This document shows, one piece after another, positions 1-9,998 of a DNA stretch of 64,000 nt. Below the pieces are notes generated by a model. It made no database searches, was not told the DNA's origin, and saw nothing but the letters and a program-made list of their open reading frames with translations. Source of the DNA: SAR202 cluster bacterium bin87 (GTDB lineage Bacteria > Chloroflexota > Dehalococcoidia > Lucifugimonadales > UBA3495); NCBI GenBank assembly GCA_002238825.1, contig MPNC01000001.1:124001-188000 (forward strand), given 5' to 3'. Within the stretch, counting starts at the first letter, position 1; each line of letters starts with the position of its first letter. A program made the translations under genes and the position numbers.

Positions 1-3000
1 GCGTTTTCGGGCAGCTCGTACTCCTGGGCATCGTAGCAGGCGATGGAGAAGTCGTCACCGCGTATCTGAAGGCGGCCCGTTACGCGTGCCACGCGGCCCT
101 GTTGCCAGACGTGCGCCGTCTTTTCCAGCGAGTCGGGCCAGACCATCGCCTCCACTTGTCCGCCCACCATGGCCAGGTCGACCCGCAGGAACTTGCGATT
201 GTCCCGGGTGTAGCGTTCGGTGACGGCGGCGATGTGCCCCAGCAGGGTCACCGTGCTGCTGAGCATCTCTTCGTCCAACTGGTCCACCGAGTTGTAGGCG
301 TCGCCCGGGGTGATGGCCGCCAGCGCCAGCAGTGGGTTGTACGACAGCGCGACCCCGAGGTACTCCTTTTCCAGGTTGGCTTTTTCCTGGGGGGTGTAGT
401 CGGCGTGGGACGTGTCCAGCTCCAGCAGCGTGCCGCCGGCGCCGCTGTCCATCTCCTCGCCGAACATGCCGAACTGTCCGGAGTTGCGGTTCCGCGTTTC
501 CTGTTGCGCCAGCGCCCATATGCGGTCCAGGTTGCCGATCACCGTTGCCCGGGGCTCCAGCGAATCGAAGGACCCGGCCTTGGCCAGTCCTTCCAGGGTT
601 CGCCGGTTCAGGCCGGAAACGTCCACCCGCCGGCAGAAATCGGTGATCGACGCGTAGGGTCCCTTGGCAACGCGCTCGGTAACGATCGGAGTGATGGCGC
701 CCTCGCCCACGGTCTTGATGGCAGCCAGCCCGATGCGCAGTTTGCCGCTTTGGGTGCGGTCGCCCGGCGTGTCAATGGTGTAATGGACGCCGGAGCCATT
801 CACGTCGGGCAACTCGATCCCGATGCCCATGCGCGTGCACTCGTTGATCGAGGCCACATAACGGTCGCCGTGATCCAGCCGGCAGTTGAGCACCGAGGCC
901 ATGTACTCCAGCGGGTAATGGGTCTTGAAGTAAGCGGTCCAGTAGGAGATAAGCCCGTAGCTCACGCTGTGGGCCTTGTTGAAGGCGTACCCGGCGAAGG
1001 GCTCGATCAGGTTGAAGATCTCCGCGCCCATCTGCTGGCTGTAGCCCTGCTGCACCGCGCCGGACACAAACCGTTCGCGCTCTTCGGCCATCAGCTCGGG
1101 AATCTTCTTTCCCATGGCCTTGCGGACGGTGTCGGCTTCGCCCAGGGAATAGCCGGCGAAGTTTTGCAGGACGTGCAGCACCTGGTCCTGGTACACGATC
1201 ACGCCGTAGGTCTCATCCAGCAACTCCTGCATGCTGGGGTGCGGATACGTGACCTGCTCCTTGCCGTGCTTCGAACGGATAAACCGGTCGATGTGTTCCA
1301 TTGGGCCTGGGCGGTAGAGGGCGATCATTGCCGCGATGTCGCCCAGGTCGGACGGCTTCAGTTCCTTGATGTACCGCTGCATGCCGGCGCTTTCCAGTTG
1401 GAACAGGTCGGTGGTGTTGCCGGTGCCCAGCAGCTCGTACGTGGCTTCGTCGTCCAGCGTCAGCCGGCTGAGGTCGATGCGGATGCCGCGTTCCTCGTCC
1501 AGCAGCTTGATGGTGCGATCCAGGATGGTGAGGTTGGTCAGGCCCAGGAAGTCCATCTTGAGGAGGCCCAGCTTGGCCACCGGGTCCATGGAATACTGGG
1601 TCATCATCACCGGGCTGTTCTCGTCCCCCCGGGATGGACGCTGCAGCGGCACCGTTTCCGTCAGGGGCTCGTCAGCAATCAGCACGCCCGCAGCATGGGT
1701 GCTGACGTGGTGGACGATGCCTTCCAGTGCCTGGGCGTTGTCCACCAGATCCCGGATCGCCGGGTCGCGCGCGTAGGTGTCCGACATTTCGGGGTTGGCG
1801 GTCATGGCGTCCGCGATGGTTCGGGACTTGAAGGGAACCATCCGGGCGATGCGGTCGACGTCGCCGTAACTCATGCCCAATCCGCGACCGACGTCGCGCA
1901 GGGCGGCCTTGGGCCCCAGGGTTCCAAAGGTAATGATCTGCGCCACCCGATCGCTGCCGTACCGGTCGATGACGTAACGCAGCACCTCATCGCGACGGTC
2001 GTCCTGGAAGTCCATGTCGATGTCAGGCATTTCCTTACGCTCGAAGTTCAGGAAACGCTCGAACACCAGGTTGTACCGCATCGGGTCGATATCGGTGATG
2101 CCCAGGCAGTACAGCACCACGCTGGCGGCGGCGCTGCCCCGCACGCCGAACAGGATCTGCTGCTTGCGCACGAACGAGATGATGTCCCAGACGACCAGGA
2201 AGTAGTTGGCGAAACTGGTTTGCCGCACGACCTCCAACTCGTACTCCATGCGGGCGCGGGCAGCATCGTTGTTGATCCCGTACCGCAGGTTGAAACCTTC
2301 CCAGCAGATGCGCGCCAGGTAGTCGTCCGCGTCCTCGTTGTTGGGAGTCGGATACCGGGGCAGGTGCATCTGCCCGAACCCCAGCGACACGTTGCACTGC
2401 TGCGCCACCTCGCCGGTGATGTCGACGGCCTTCGGGAAATCGTGGAACAGCGTGGCCATCTCGTCGGCGGACCTGATGTAGTAGGACGAATCCTCCATCC
2501 GCAGGCGTTTGTCATCCATCACGTTGGTGCCCGTTTGGATGCAGATGTACACGTCCTGGTACTGGTAGTCGGACTGGCGGACGTAATGGGCGTCGTTGGT
2601 TACCAGCAGGGGAACGCCGGTTTCCCGGTTCAGGCGAGCCAGGCCGTCGTTGATCCGGGGCAACTGCTCGATATGCTCGTGCCGCTGCAATTCCAGGAAG
2701 TAGTTCTCACCGAATAACTCGCGATACCAGCCGACCATTTGCTTGGCGTCCTGGAAGTTGCCGTCGGCCAGCAGGGTCGGCACCTCGGCGGAGGGACACC
2801 CGGACAGGCAGATCAACCCGCTGCGGTGCCGATCGATCAACTCCTTGTCGATGCGGGGCCGGTAATGGAAACCTTCCAGGTGGGAGAGGGTCACCAGCTG
2901 CAGGAGGTTGCGGTACCCGGTGTTGTCCTTGGCGATGAGCACCAGGTGGTTGGCGGTGCGCTCGTTGGGAGTGCGGTCGTGCCGGCTGCCGTGGGCGACG

Positions 3001-3200
3001 TAGAACTCGCAGCCGATGATCGGCTTGATACCCGCTTCTTTGCACTCCGAGTAGAAATCGACCACGCCGTAGAGCGAACCGTGGTCGGTGATGCTCATGG
3101 CGTCCATGCTCAGTTCGCGGGTCCGGTTCACCAGATCCGGGATTCGACTGATGCCATCGAGCATGCTGTATTCGGTGTGTGTATGCAGGTGGGTGAACAC
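1..3200 (-). CDS. dnaE: DNA polymerase III alpha subunit (3' end outside window)
   Basis: This is the replicative polymerase catalytic subunit, with about 1066 residues visible and the C-terminal part cut by the window edge. It begins with a PHP domain (FTHLHTHTEYSMLDG), followed by the polymerase palm with the catalytic acidic motif PDIDMDFQDDRRDEV. Next come the FGTLGPKAALRDVGR region, a helix-hairpin-helix region (VSGLNRRTLEGLAKAG) and the start of the OB fold (VTLLGHIAAVTERYTRDNR). The start is a GTG at 3198-3200, chosen because the PHP domain begins immediately after it; the SD is weak. The PHP metal ligands look intact, so proofreading by this domain is possible but unproven. It is transcribed toward the left edge, probably from the extended -10 at 3250-3258. 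Confidence 0.97.
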   Translation of the reverse strand, partial: MFTHLHTHTEYSMLDGISRIPDLVNRTRELSMDAMSITDHGSLYGVVDFYSECKEAGIKPIIGCEFYVAHGSRHDRTPNERTANHLVLIAKDNTGYRNLLQLVTLSHLEGFHYRPRIDKELIDRHRSGLICLSGCPSAEVPTLLADGNFQDAKQMVGWYRELFGENYFLELQRHEHIEQLPRINDGLARLNRETGVPLLVTNDAHYVRQSDYQYQDVYICIQTGTNVMDDKRLRMEDSSYYIRSADEMATLFHDFPKAVDITGEVAQQCNVSLGFGQMHLPRYPTPNNEDADDYLARICWEGFNLRYGINNDAARARMEYELEVVRQTSFANYFLVVWDIISFVRKQQILFGVRGSAAASVVLYCLGITDIDPMRYNLVFERFLNFERKEMPDIDMDFQDDRRDEVLRYVIDRYGSDRVAQIITFGTLGPKAALRDVGRGLGMSYGDVDRIARMVPFKSRTIADAMTANPEMSDTYARDPAIRDLVDNAQALEGIVHHVSTHAAGVLIADEPLTETVPLQRPSRGDENSPVMMTQYSMDPVAKLGLLKMDFLGLTNLTILDRTIKLLDEERGIRIDLSRLTLDDEATYELLGTGNTTDLFQLESAGMQRYIKELKPSDLGDIAAMIALYRPGPMEHIDRFIRSKHGKEQVTYPHPSMQELLDETYGVIVYQDQVLHVLQNFAGYSLGEADTVRKAMGKKIPELMAEERERFVSGAVQQGYSQQMGAEIFNLIEPFAGYAFNKAHSVSYGLISYWTAYFKTHYPLEYMASVLNCRLDHGDRYVASINECTRMGIGIELPDVNGSGVHYTIDTPGDRTQSGKLRIGLAAIKTVGEGAITPIVTERVAKGPYASITDFCRRVDVSGLNRRTLEGLAKAGSFDSLEPRATVIGNLDRIWALAQQETRNRNSGQFGMFGEEMDSGAGGTLLELDTSHADYTPQEKANLEKEYLGVALSYNPLLALAAITPGDAYNSVDQLDEEMLSSTVTLLGHIAAVTERYTRDNRKFLRVDLAMVGGQVEAMVWPDSLEKTAHVWQQGRVARVTGRLQIRGDDFSIACYDAQEYELPEN

Positions 3201-3386: not shown

Positions 3387-4460
3387 TCAACCCGGAACTT
3401 CGATCTTCTCCGTCACCACGCGGGTCACGCCCCAGCCGGCCAGCCAGGCGGAGTGGCGGCCGTCTCCCCCGGCTACCACCACGACGATGTCGTCCGCCTG
3501 GGGCGCTATCGGCACCATGGTATTCGGGTCGTCGTCGTCAACCCAATCCGGGTAGTTGCGGTTGCCCCAGTGTCCCAGTCCGGAAAGATCGGAGATCGAC
3601 ATCCTCGCGTTTTCGAACACGTACTCCCGAACGTCCTGCTTGGTGAACCCGTCCGCCGCGATTTCCGCCGCGTGCTCCGGGCTCAGCACCAGCGTCACCT
3701 GCGCACCGGTCCCGATCTGGTAGTAATTGGAGAAGCCGGTGGCCCGGGTCCCCTGAACCAGCGTGTGGAGCACGTCAGTCCCGGTGGAAACCGTGGTTTC
3801 CATGATCGGGTAGAAGCCCCTGATGGCGTGGAGGGTCACCATGCTGTCTTCGGGATCGAGCCCCATCTCCACATGCCTGGGTTCCCACGGGCTGCGCGAC
3901 TCGTTCTCCGCGAAGCAGAAAGAGTACCTGCCAGGCATGGCCAGCGTGGCCTTGTCCATGTCGCCGATGATGAGCCCGGCCACGTTGCGCACGAACAGGC
4001 GCAGCGCCCGGCCGATGGTCGCGTTGGCCCGGTACCCTGGCCCGAACGCCCCGGAATCGCCGTTGATGCCCAGGCGCTCGGCAATGGGGCCGTTCACGAT
4101 CACCACCGGCGCGGCGCCGCCCGTGGTGGCCTGGCACCCGGCCAGGTTGAACGACGTTTGCAGGGCCGCTTTGACGCACGCCACCACCACCGGAAAATAC
4201 TCGGGCCGGCACCCGGCCATCACCGCGTTGATCGCGACCTTCTCGATGGTGACCCCCGAGTTGGACGGTTGCGCGATCCCCAGGGACAGCGACGGGTCCT
4301 CGCCCCAAGGCCCGAGCATGCGCTGGACCGCATCTTCCGTGGCCGGTACCACGGGCATGCCGTCGGTCCATCCCTGCTCTTCGTAGTAGTCCTGGATCGC
4401 GTCGTAGGTATCAGAGACGGTGATGCGGCGCGAGTTCAAGGCTCGACTGTTGGTTGTCAT
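3387..4460 (-). CDS. UGSC-selenoprotein-associated protein of unknown function
   Basis: A 357-residue protein of a family I associate with UGSC (seleno)proteins. The N-terminal YYEEQGWTDGMPVVPATED block and the VTIEKVAINAVMAGCRPEYF block are typical. No signal peptide or membrane segment is seen. Three cysteines are conspicuous: GCRPEYF, AGCQATTGG and SFCFAENE. It lies 4 nt downstream of the EEP-fold gene stop (TGA, ATTT, ATG) and is therefore probably translationally coupled to it. The selenoprotein is one gene further upstream. The reaction is unknown. My inference is that it works with the UGSC protein, because the two kinds of gene recur together. Confidence 0.8.
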   Translation of the reverse strand: MTTNSRALNSRRITVSDTYDAIQDYYEEQGWTDGMPVVPATEDAVQRMLGPWGEDPSLSLGIAQPSNSGVTIEKVAINAVMAGCRPEYFPVVVACVKAALQTSFNLAGCQATTGGAAPVVIVNGPIAERLGINGDSGAFGPGYRANATIGRALRLFVRNVAGLIIGDMDKATLAMPGRYSFCFAENESRSPWEPRHVEMGLDPEDSMVTLHAIRGFYPIMETTVSTGTDVLHTLVQGTRATGFSNYYQIGTGAQVTLVLSPEHAAEIAADGFTKQDVREYVFENARMSISDLSGLGHWGNRNYPDWVDDDDPNTMVPIAPQADDIVVVVAGGDGRHSAWLAGWGVTRVVTEKIEVPG

Positions 4461-4464
4461 AAAT

Positions 4465-5238
4465 TCACTCTACCGGGTTTTGTGCTTGTGGGTTCGTACG
4501 ACTGTTCAGCAATGCGTGGACGCCGAAGTGGTCGGATAGTTTCGCGCCATCGTGCGTCAAGTTATCAAGCGTGCCCAGGGAGGCAGCGGATAATTCGCCG
4601 CTCACGGCGATGTGGTCGATGGCTCTCCTACCCCGCAGTCCCAGGCCAGCTGTGATTATAGTCAGCCCGGGCGGCTGGCCGGCTAGCATTGTGGTCTGCA
4701 ATTCGGCGCGCACCGGTTGGGAAAGGGGCGGGTACGGATTCCTGCGCTGCCCGAGTTGCTGATTGAAGTCGCCAATCATGATGAGCTGCGTCGGCGTTCT
4801 ACTTTTCAGGATCATGGAAAGCCCGCGCAGATACGACGCGTGTTCCTGCCAGGCAATGCGGTTTTTGTTGCCGACGTTCACGTTCGCGTTGTGATAGGGA
4901 ATGCAGACTCCGATGACCGTGACACGGCCGATTGAAGTCTCGGTGCTACCAGAAATGAATCTCCCTGGAGGCAATTCAGCGTTACCTAGTTCGTCAGCGT
5001 CGGCCCACCCTTCCCTGGACCAGAGTGCAACCTTGCGGCGGTTGTTTGCGGTCAGTTTGCCCTGCTCTGGTCCGGCCGCGATCACACGCCCGTCCCATGC
5101 TGCCAGCAGCCTGAGATCCGTTTCCGTGAGGCAAACGATGTCCGGGTTATGGCTCTCGATCCGGCGCAAAATTTCTGGGCTACGCGCCGAAGCGGGCGTA
5201 GCCCATTCAACATTCCAGTTGACCACACTCAATGACAT
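4465..5238 (-). CDS. Endonuclease/exonuclease/phosphatase (EEP) fold hydrolase
   Basis: A 257-residue EEP-superfamily protein, a metal-dependent phosphodiesterase or phosphatase fold. The active-site series is complete: VVNWNVEW (Asn), CLTETDL (catalytic Glu), GDFNQQL (Asp/Asn), AIDHIAVSG, and the terminal SDHFGVHAL (Asp-His). No signal peptide is seen. It sits between the UGSC selenoprotein (stop 28 nt upstream) and the UGSC-associated gene (start 4 nt downstream), which is unusual. Its base composition looks less GC-rich than its neighbours, a possible sign of later insertion. The substrate cannot be told from sequence: DNA, RNA, phospholipid or small molecule are all possible. No clear SD precedes the ATG. 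Confidence 0.88.
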   Translation of the reverse strand: MSLSVVNWNVEWATPASARSPEILRRIESHNPDIVCLTETDLRLLAAWDGRVIAAGPEQGKLTANNRRKVALWSREGWADADELGNAELPPGRFISGSTETSIGRVTVIGVCIPYHNANVNVGNKNRIAWQEHASYLRGLSMILKSRTPTQLIMIGDFNQQLGQRRNPYPPLSQPVRAELQTTMLAGQPPGLTIITAGLGLRGRRAIDHIAVSGELSAASLGTLDNLTHDGAKLSDHFGVHALLNSRTNPQAQNPVE

Positions 5239-5266
5239 CGGGTGTGGCTGGCTCTCGTGGCCGGAG

Positions 5267-5806
5267 TTACTTCCCGTTGGTCAGCATTTCGGCGATCCGG
5301 CCGGCGTAGTCGTGCGCCAGTTGCTGCACGTCCGGTATTGACCGTGAAGCCAGCGGGCTGGGCAGAGCCAGGATCTGGACGCCGGGCATTCCCAGGGAGG
5401 AGGCGCGGGCGTGCGCGGCCCGGGTGAAACTCTCGGTGATTACGCTCACGGACGGGACGCCGCGGGCTTCGGTAACTACTGTGTCGTGGAGACCCCACGC
5501 CGTGCAGCTCCCTCAATCCGCGATTCCGTGCACCACCGCATCGCACTGTTCGATCAGTTCTTCGATGGTCTCGTCCGAGCAGGGAGCGCTGAAGGTGAAC
5601 TTGCGCAGGTATACCACCTTCTCGACGGCATACTCCTCCTCCAGGATGACCTGAAGCTCCTGCAGGAAGTTGTCGGAATGGTATTTGCGGTTTTCCACCA
5701 GACCGATGGTCTTGCCGGAGAGGCTGGGCAACCGGTCGGCCGCTGCGCGCTCCTCGGTCTTTTGCTCCGGACGCGGGTCCAGGATCTGGATGGTTGCAGT
5801 AGTCAT
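5267..5806 (-). CDS. UGSC-family selenoprotein with in-frame TGA read as selenocysteine
   Basis: Reading the TGA at 5513-5515 as Sec gives one 179-residue protein with Sec98 in an Asp-U-G-S-C context (VVHGIAD-U-GSC-TAWGLHD). The N-terminal half (GKTIGLVENRKYHSDNFLQE, ending IEQCDAVVHGIAD) and the C-terminal half (VTEARGVPSVSVITESF, then SIPDVQQLAHDYAGRIAEM) together form a complete UGSC-like domain. Either half alone would be an incomplete fold. The start ATG at 5806 is set by GGAGG four bases upstream; the frame also runs 10 codons further upstream to a TTG that has no SD. A candidate SECIS hairpin follows the TGA directly. The gene lies 54 nt after guaB3 and is likely co-transcribed with it. 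The function of the family is unknown; the U-G-S-C motif suggests a redox site. Simple decay by a nonsense mutation is less likely, since the downstream frame is intact to a TAA at 5267. Confidence 0.9.
5485..5515 (-). promoter_or_regulatory. Candidate bacterial SECIS element with its UGA codon
   Basis: On the minus strand the UGA (5515-5513) is followed by 18 nt and then the loop of a perfect 5-bp stem, CGTGG-GGTCT-CCACG (5499-5485). Bacterial SECIS elements usually have a small apical loop with a G among its first bases, about 16-37 nt after the UGA. This hairpin fits on both counts. It lies inside the coding sequence, as is normal in bacteria. Confidence 0.75.
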
Positions 5807-5860
5807 GGTTCCTCCGATTATTCTTTCAACCGCCAATCTCGTGAAAGCGGGATCCAGAGT

Positions 5861-6997
5861 TTATCCCAGCATCTGATAGTGCTTGCCCTCGGTTTTGATG
5901 GCCGGGGCGATGACCATTTCCGTTTTGTGGAAATCGCGGACTGTGTACGCGCCGCACATGCCCATGGCCACTCGCAAGGCGCCGACGAGGTTCTGGGTTC
6001 CGTTGGTGACGCTGGACGGCCCGTGCATCAACTGTTTGAGGGACCCCTTGGTGCCGACGTTGATGCGCGTGCCACGGGGCAGTTCGGGGTGGGCGTTCGC
6101 CATGCCCCAGTTGTAGCCGCGTCCCGGCGCCTCCGCCGCTTGGGCAAAGGGTGTGCCCAGCATCACTCCGTCAGCGCCGCTGGCCATCGCCTTGCAAACG
6201 TCGCCGCCCGTCCGCAGCCCGCCGTCAGTGATCACGCTGACGTACCGCCCGGTGCGCTGGAAGTAGTCCTCCCGGGCCGCCGCGCATTCCAGGGTTGCGG
6301 TCACCTGCGGCACGCCAACCCCGGTCACCTCGCGGGTGGTGCAGGCCGCGCCCGGACCCACTCCGACCAGCACGGCGTCAATCCCAGTTTCCATCAACTC
6401 GCTGGCCACGCTGTAGCTGACGCAGTTGCCGACCACCACCGGAACATCGAGCGACTCAATCAGCTCGGAAAAAATGAGGCCCCGGTAGCTGCGGGACATG
6501 TGCCGAGCGGTGGTTACGGTGGATTGCACCACGATGATATCGGCGCCGGCCTCGACGGCCATCGGGCTCAGACGCTTGGTAGTCTGGGGCGTGAACGCGA
6601 TGGCAGCGATGGATCCAGTCTGCTTGATTTCCTGGACACGCTCGCCGATGAGGTGATCCTGGACCGGCTGGCTGTAAACTTCTTGCAGGTACTCCGTGAC
6701 CTCGGCCTGGTCCATGGAGATAATTTCTTCCAGGACCGAATACGGATCTTCGTAGCGCGTGTACAGGCCCTCGCCGTTGAGCACTCCCAGACCGCCCATG
6801 TCGTGCATCAGGGTCGCGAATCGGGGAGACACGGATCCGTCCATGGCTGAGGCCATCACTGGGGCGTCGAAAGAGTATTGGCCGATGCTCATTTTTGTGG
6901 ACGTCATTTCCGGGTTGATTGTGACATCGCCCGGGACGATCGCGACTTCGTCAAAGCCATAGGACCGTTCCAGTTCTTTGAGCAAACGCCTGGCCAT
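5861..6997 (-). CDS. guaB3: GuaB3-type IMP dehydrogenase-related protein
   Basis: A 378-residue TIM-barrel protein of the IMPDH/GMP reductase superfamily without CBS domains, which matches the GuaB3 family in length. The catalytic-cysteine loop is present as [18 protein letters not shown], preceded by [19 protein letters not shown] and followed by the phosphate-binding [21 protein letters not shown]-terminal [15 protein letters not shown] is also typical. The exact reaction of GuaB3 proteins differs between lineages and cannot be fixed here. The start ATG at 6997 has GAGGTG five bases upstream. It probably heads a transcript that continues into the UGSC selenoprotein. Confidence 0.93.
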
Positions 6998-9876: not shown

Positions 9877-9998
9877 CTTTCCGGCGGTGACCTATTTTCC
9901 CACTCCGTTACCAGAGCAGTATCGTGGGCGCTGGGGCGTTTCACTTCCGTGTTCGGGATGGGTACGGGTGGGGCCACCCCGCTTGAACCACCAGAAAG
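9877..9998 (-). rRNA. rrf: 5S ribosomal RNA
   Basis: The minus strand carries the 5S core (CCCGAACACGGAAGTGAAAC, then GATACTGC and GGGAAAATAGGTCACC). The ends form a 12-bp helix I between 9998-9987 and 9888-9877, which fixes a length of 122 nt. No 16S or 23S sequence adjoins it: the upstream side is a short promoter region and then tRNA-Lys on the other strand. It therefore appears to be a stand-alone 5S gene. Confidence 0.95.

Follow-up and report, generated by a model that had tools for sequence, protein, structure and literature searches.

A minus-strand reading frame crossed by a single TGA raises two questions, namely whether this TGA ends the gene or encodes selenocysteine (Sec) and, in the latter case, what kind of enzyme the protein belongs to. 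The frame lies within the window, i.e., the whole 64,000-nucleotide stretch of DNA from SAR202 cluster bacterium bin87 that was analyzed. The elements concerned are:

5267 to 5806, minus strand: gene for a UGSC-family selenoprotein, 179 codons followed by TAA, with profile matches and a GGAGG ribosome-binding site
5513 to 5515, minus strand: in-frame TGA (Sec98), a TGA in 54 of 54 orthologues
5485 to 5499, minus strand: bacterial SECIS hairpin CGUGG-GGUCU-CCACG, with covariation and suppressed synonymous variation

With the TGA read as a residue, translation of 5806-5267 on the minus strand yielded 179 residues followed by a TAA stop, and codon 98 was the sole TGA. The gene starts with an ATG just downstream of a GGAGG ribosome-binding site, its GC content by codon position follows the pattern of coding genes, and the coding sequence is conserved on both sides of the TGA, as in bacterial selenoprotein genes. 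Gly-Ser-Cys immediately follows the TGA codon, resulting in the motif U98-G99-S100-C101, of which positions 98, 99 and 101 were invariant among 20 diverse UGSC members. The Pfam family PF24696 (UGSC) spanned residues 7-176 across the TGA (E 4.6e-50, 170.6 bits, cut-off 25), and the NCBIfam model NF041046 was matched with 129.3 bits (cut-off 125). Translation and the PF24696 match across the TGA thus confirmed the original prediction of one 179-residue UGSC frame with a single TGA and a Sec98-Gly-Ser-Cys motif. That two fragmentary frames join here was correct for the joined frame itself; a matching pair does not occur in the mechanical list of open reading frames, where the upstream entry covers 5513-5836 and the entry at 5229-5546 lies in another frame. 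Similarly, the expectation that automatic annotation would split or truncate the gene was only partly fair, as NF041046 is an NCBI model made specifically for UGSC (seleno)proteins.

In an assembly of metagenome type (4.96 Mb, 67 contigs, estimated to be 100% complete), a frame interrupted once might represent a pseudogene or a sequencing error, with the TGA being a true stop. Orthologues were surveyed with patterns drawn solely from the sequence downstream of the TGA, leaving the Sec codon unused. All 54 orthologues, nearly all from Dehalococcoidia/SAR202-type Chloroflexota, carried TGA at the Sec codon. A normal stop or the loss of the conserved downstream part in relatives, named beforehand as an outcome that would speak against Sec, was not what we found, as both the TGA and the downstream part were retained by orthologues from 13 congeners and from a further 10 genera of this family. 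The genome itself harbors eight diverged UGSC genes, each with exactly one in-frame TGA (8/8). Among 400 genomes drawn from the phylum, 42 possessed UGSC genes, almost all matches having one TGA. Three complete exceptions were identified, with Cys, Thr or Met at the Sec position; these are rare, and the proposed check for Cys replacing Sec in homologues thereby yielded a rare natural Cys variant.

The hairpin starts 13 nt after the UGA, with 18 nt between UGA and loop, and has a small GU-containing loop, which presumably matches the loop of E. coli fdhF. In a set of 21 diverse sequences picked by hand, 96.2% of the cells in the stem were paired, compared to at most 56% in slid controls. Four of the five pairs showed changes on both sides, and such both-side changes occurred in 14 cells, as opposed to 3.1 in shuffles and no more than three in slid controls. 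Each of the five pairs formed in 96-100% of 84 distinct sequences. Among the orthologues, codons underlying the hairpin were nearly frozen synonymously (GGT 77/77, CTC 76/77, CAC 77/77, GAC 76/77), while the synonymous sites of the codons before and after it vary. In some distant members both Cys and His are substituted by Ala, and the SECIS stem is still paired. The folding energy of single sequences was not unusual in half of the paralogues, and it is therefore the covariation that carries the evidence for the SECIS element.

The original prediction further implied a Sec machinery encoded elsewhere, and the genome search indeed identified SelA (544.5 bits, cut-off 267.9), SelB (352.7 bits, cut-off 242.25), SelD (373.1 bits, above the curated cut-off) and a tRNA-Sec whose anticodon is TCA (66.4 bits, gathering threshold 47). 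As SelA is also present in 38 of 40 relatives, a contaminant contig is an unlikely source. SelD, encoded at L021:1399-2529 in this genome, may likewise be a selenoprotein, as its gene has an in-frame TGA within an HCAGU motif.

Given the TGA in 54/54 orthologues and in each of the eight paralogues, the SECIS covariation and the Sec machinery, a pseudogene or sequencing error has practically no chance of being correct and was rejected on the grounds of conservation. An equally negligible probability is assigned to TGA being read as another residue through a code change or readthrough. No support for such a readout was found, and TGA is the ordinary stop of other genes in the window, e.g., the ClpB/C-like, the EEP and the partner gene (see below), so that no global reassignment of the code has taken place; tRNA-Sec and SelB are present along with a covarying SECIS element, and a rare natural variant carries Cys at the Sec position. 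Code reassignment was rejected on account of the frequent use of TGA as a stop. Conservation, covariation and the machinery together indicate that UGA codon 98 is almost certainly decoded as Sec by SelB and tRNA-Sec, as far as can be judged from sequence. A scan of the window for other TGA-split frames resulted in weak candidates only, the best-looking of which reads like antisense, and no UGSC gene was confirmed in viral contigs.

The UGSC-containing selenoprotein family has been known since 2007-2008 (Zhang and Gladyshev 2007/2008; PF24696, NF041046), and finding a selenoprotein here is therefore not novel in itself. Among marine selenoproteins, UGSC proteins belong to the most abundant (PMC2398784, PMC9402790). 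The protein agrees with the family in its full-length match above both curated cut-offs, in the UGSC motif, and in Sec predominating over Cys, which in GOS amounts to 255 Sec and 21 Cys homologues (PMC2398784). Nothing that defines the family differs in this genome; what is added are eight copies that have diverged from one another and are each accompanied by a partner gene of their own. The original prediction, while supported on the selenoprotein, missed the partner gene, the eight-copy family and a similarity to GrdB/PrdB reductases. The neighboring genes are:

3387 to 4460, minus strand: partner gene, 357 aa, one copy per UGSC gene, fused in some loci
4465 to 5238, minus strand: endonuclease/exonuclease/phosphatase-family (EEP) gene, between UGSC and partner
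5861 to 6997, minus strand: guaB3-family IMP dehydrogenase-related gene, 54 bp upstream of UGSC

The genome contains exactly eight partner copies, each adjacent or fused to one of the eight UGSC genes. In the paralogue L008, UGSC and the partner domain form a single fusion protein (32% identity over 360 columns, E 2e-59). Presence of UGSC and partner agreed in 40 of 40 relatives, with both occurring in the same 30 genomes and neither in the same 10; 23 of the 30 had equal copy numbers, and the correlation of the counts was r 0.988. A profile of the partner matched in 48 of 54 named orthologous loci, a further one being cut by a contig end. The distance between UGSC and partner was 6.4 kb in one genome (G015), and the partner adjoins UGSC also in two Acidimicrobiales loci. 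The identity matrices of the eight UGSC/partner pairs correlated as well (r 0.65, permutation p 0.007); leaving out the fusion lowers the value to r 0.44, which makes this test a weak one. From the one-to-one pairing and the fusion we infer that the partner is very probably the second subunit of an obligate two-subunit complex with UGSC. The rare Sec-less UGSC relatives L203, L204 and L205, with Cys (CWGT), Thr and Met, all keep the partner domain, either adjacent or fused. Another fusion, the 661-aa UGSC protein L097:1336-3318, has a weak match to a twin-arginine signal at its N-terminus, which may point to export in some lineages.

In 2008, a fusion of UGSC to a conserved unknown domain termed 'Unknown_1' was reported (PMC2398784, Figure S1A). 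The arrangement is the same as in the UGSC fusions L008 and L097, a UGSC domain joined to a conserved unknown domain, but differs in that the partner is a separate gene in most loci studied here. The 357-aa partner may well be the same as Unknown_1.

Of the other neighbors, the EEP gene occurs in close relatives and is missing from many of the more distant orthologous loci. The guaB3 gene is syntenic in most orthologous loci and is not a recurring neighbor of the UGSC paralogues, and therefore probably reflects local gene order; a functional link between UGSC and guaB3 was rejected on this basis. The neighborhoods of the paralogues vary, including an FlK-like thioesterase, a 3-hydroxyisobutyrate dehydrogenase, a luciferase-like monooxygenase and an enolase-superfamily protein, and gave no single answer with regard to the substrate.

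The literature terms UGSC proteins thioredoxin-like (PMC2398784; PMC13188914). If so, the UGSC selenoprotein might be a general thiol/peroxide redox protein and the partner a mere client or regulator, and a UxxC redox motif at the N-terminus of a helix, shared with thioredoxin-like selenoproteins, does recall the CxxC of thioredoxin. In the predicted model (pLDDT 91.3), Sec98 is located just before helix 99-114. However, the model consists of five strictly alternating strand-helix units, (beta-alpha)5, without a beta hairpin, and thus differs from the beta-alpha-beta-alpha-beta-beta-alpha order with hairpin of the thioredoxin-like fold. The best-matching structural neighbors were generic Rossmann/flavodoxin-type proteins, with no thioredoxin among those listed. 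The sequence family differs likewise, as an NCBIfam scan of 20 diverse UGSC proteins gave no thioredoxin family match and repeatedly returned GrdB/PrdB models. In addition, diverged copies in one-to-one pairs with a partner are better suited to a substrate-specific enzyme. A thioredoxin-like fold was therefore rejected on the predicted topology, which suggests a Rossmann-like fold and calls the literature's assignment into question; a general redox protein is accordingly regarded as quite improbable.

The preferred reading, to which we assign a probability of roughly 65%, is that the protein is a true UGSC selenoprotein and serves as the Sec-carrying subunit in an obligate, GrdB-like enzyme of two subunits. 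In the NCBIfam scan of the 20 proteins, selenoprotein B of glycine/sarcosine/betaine reductase and PrdB were, apart from UGSC itself, the sole families to recur: TIGR01917 was matched by 11 of 20 (best E 4.7e-5), and the GrdF, GrdH, TIGR01918 and PrdB models were also matched. A profile-profile comparison (hhalign) of UGSC with 24 GrdB/PrdB-like sequences aligned Sec on Sec (E 3.7e-5, probability 71%, score 41), whereas column-shuffled, reversed and partner controls scored no higher than 23.9 with a probability of at most 3%. The similarity is local to the Sec region and far below the curated family cut-offs; L097, for example, scored 17.4 bits against a GrdB-family cut-off of 602. This supports remote homology between UGSC and GrdB/PrdB, judged by profiles, rather than family membership. 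UGSC shares with GrdB/GrdF/GrdH (PF07355, TIGR01917/01918) and PrdB (TIGR04483) an alignable Sec region of the type strand-U-x-x-(C)-helix, but is much shorter than GrdB. The two-subunit organization proposed for UGSC and its partner resembles GrdB with GrdE and PrdB with PrdA, and several substrate-specific copies per genome are also known from GrdB-type systems, as in Cloacibacillus, where multiple GrdB/GrdE pairs include a fluoroacetate reductase with proposed carbon-fluorine cleavage (PMC10838667). A search with a GrdB-like query identified no solved GrdB/PrdB structures for a comparison of folds.

The partner, in contrast, showed no relation to GrdE/PrdA in any search conducted here. Its sequence had no relatives in Pfam, NCBIfam or PDB, and a family-profile search of 12 partner proteins against PF09338 (GrdE/PrdA-type) and other families gave no convincing match, so that nothing points to a pyruvoyl cofactor. 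Nor did the predicted structure of the partner (pLDDT 84) convincingly match a fold in the PDB (Foldseek: E 0.018 at best; VIA: Z 5.3 at best, with an rmsd of 3.0 over 88 residues). Glu185 is one of the invariant residues of the partner. The partner has an invariant Cys84, an invariant Arg151 and Gly-rich motifs, and these would also fit a two-subunit selenoenzyme with a reaction other than that of GrdB/PrdB, e.g., of the hydratase, lyase or isomerase type, centered on the partner. A very faint likeness of the partner to class I fumarases (Foldseek E 0.018, probability 0.21; VIA Z 4.8, rmsd 5.5, 189 aligned) points in the same direction, but is within noise. Moreover, the GrdB/PrdB similarity centers on Sec, and Sec is usually employed for redox or nucleophilic chemistry. 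We thus consider a reaction of this type rather unlikely; by analogy, the chances that the UGSC-partner pair conducts GrdB/PrdB-like chemistry are evenly balanced.

For the GrdB-like enzyme, the following sequence of events would apply. UGA98 would be read as Sec by SelB and tRNA-Sec, directed by the SECIS element just downstream, placing Sec98 and Cys101 at the N-terminus of a helix following the third strand of the predicted Rossmann-like domain. The substrate would be held by the partner, and the Sec98 selenolate, by analogy with GrdB and PrdB, would attack a carbon-heteroatom bond of the substrate. Cys101 might then resolve the selenium intermediate as a selenenylsulfide, which cellular thiols would re-reduce. 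The 1-11 diverged UGSC/partner pairs per genome would represent variants that serve different substrates in this Dehalococcoidia/SAR202-type organism. We lean slightly toward the more far-reaching view that UGSC and the 357-aa partner constitute a previously unrecognized two-subunit selenoenzyme family that shares a distant relationship with GrdB/PrdB at the Sec site, with a partner unrelated to those systems and possibly of a new fold, and with many substrate-specific copies in SAR202-type Chloroflexota. A limited literature search found no published link between UGSC and GrdB; within the limits of our searches, neither the one-to-one partner nor the GrdB/PrdB similarity seems to have been described before. 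The dedicated partner subunit and the link to GrdB/PrdB render UGSC function testable.

Several further observations were made. Within the window, a dnaE-like DNA polymerase III alpha gene (3-3200, minus strand) follows the partner gene, and the strand opposite to it has a long open frame of 904 codons that looks spurious. A 5S rRNA gene is located at 9879-9995 on the minus strand, with no 16S/23S match reported in the window. In the contigs L121, L126 and L136, labeled Proteobacteria, Planctomycetaceae and Rhodothermales, there are UGSC orthologues of Chloroflexota-like type, accompanied by guaB3, the partner or both, suggesting binning errors or transfer. Directly after one UGSC paralogue, a gene of the fluoroacetyl-CoA thioesterase (FlK) family occurs (L154:8945-9343), which is suggestive beside a GrdB-like selenoprotein, albeit a single case. 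Finally, a short GrdB/PrdB-like gene (PF07355; L188:1423-2634, at G000 C9:298767) runs through an in-frame TGA within a UPLC motif; with a C-terminal part of about 240 aa after the TGA, it would represent a second selenoprotein type in this genome and its relatives.
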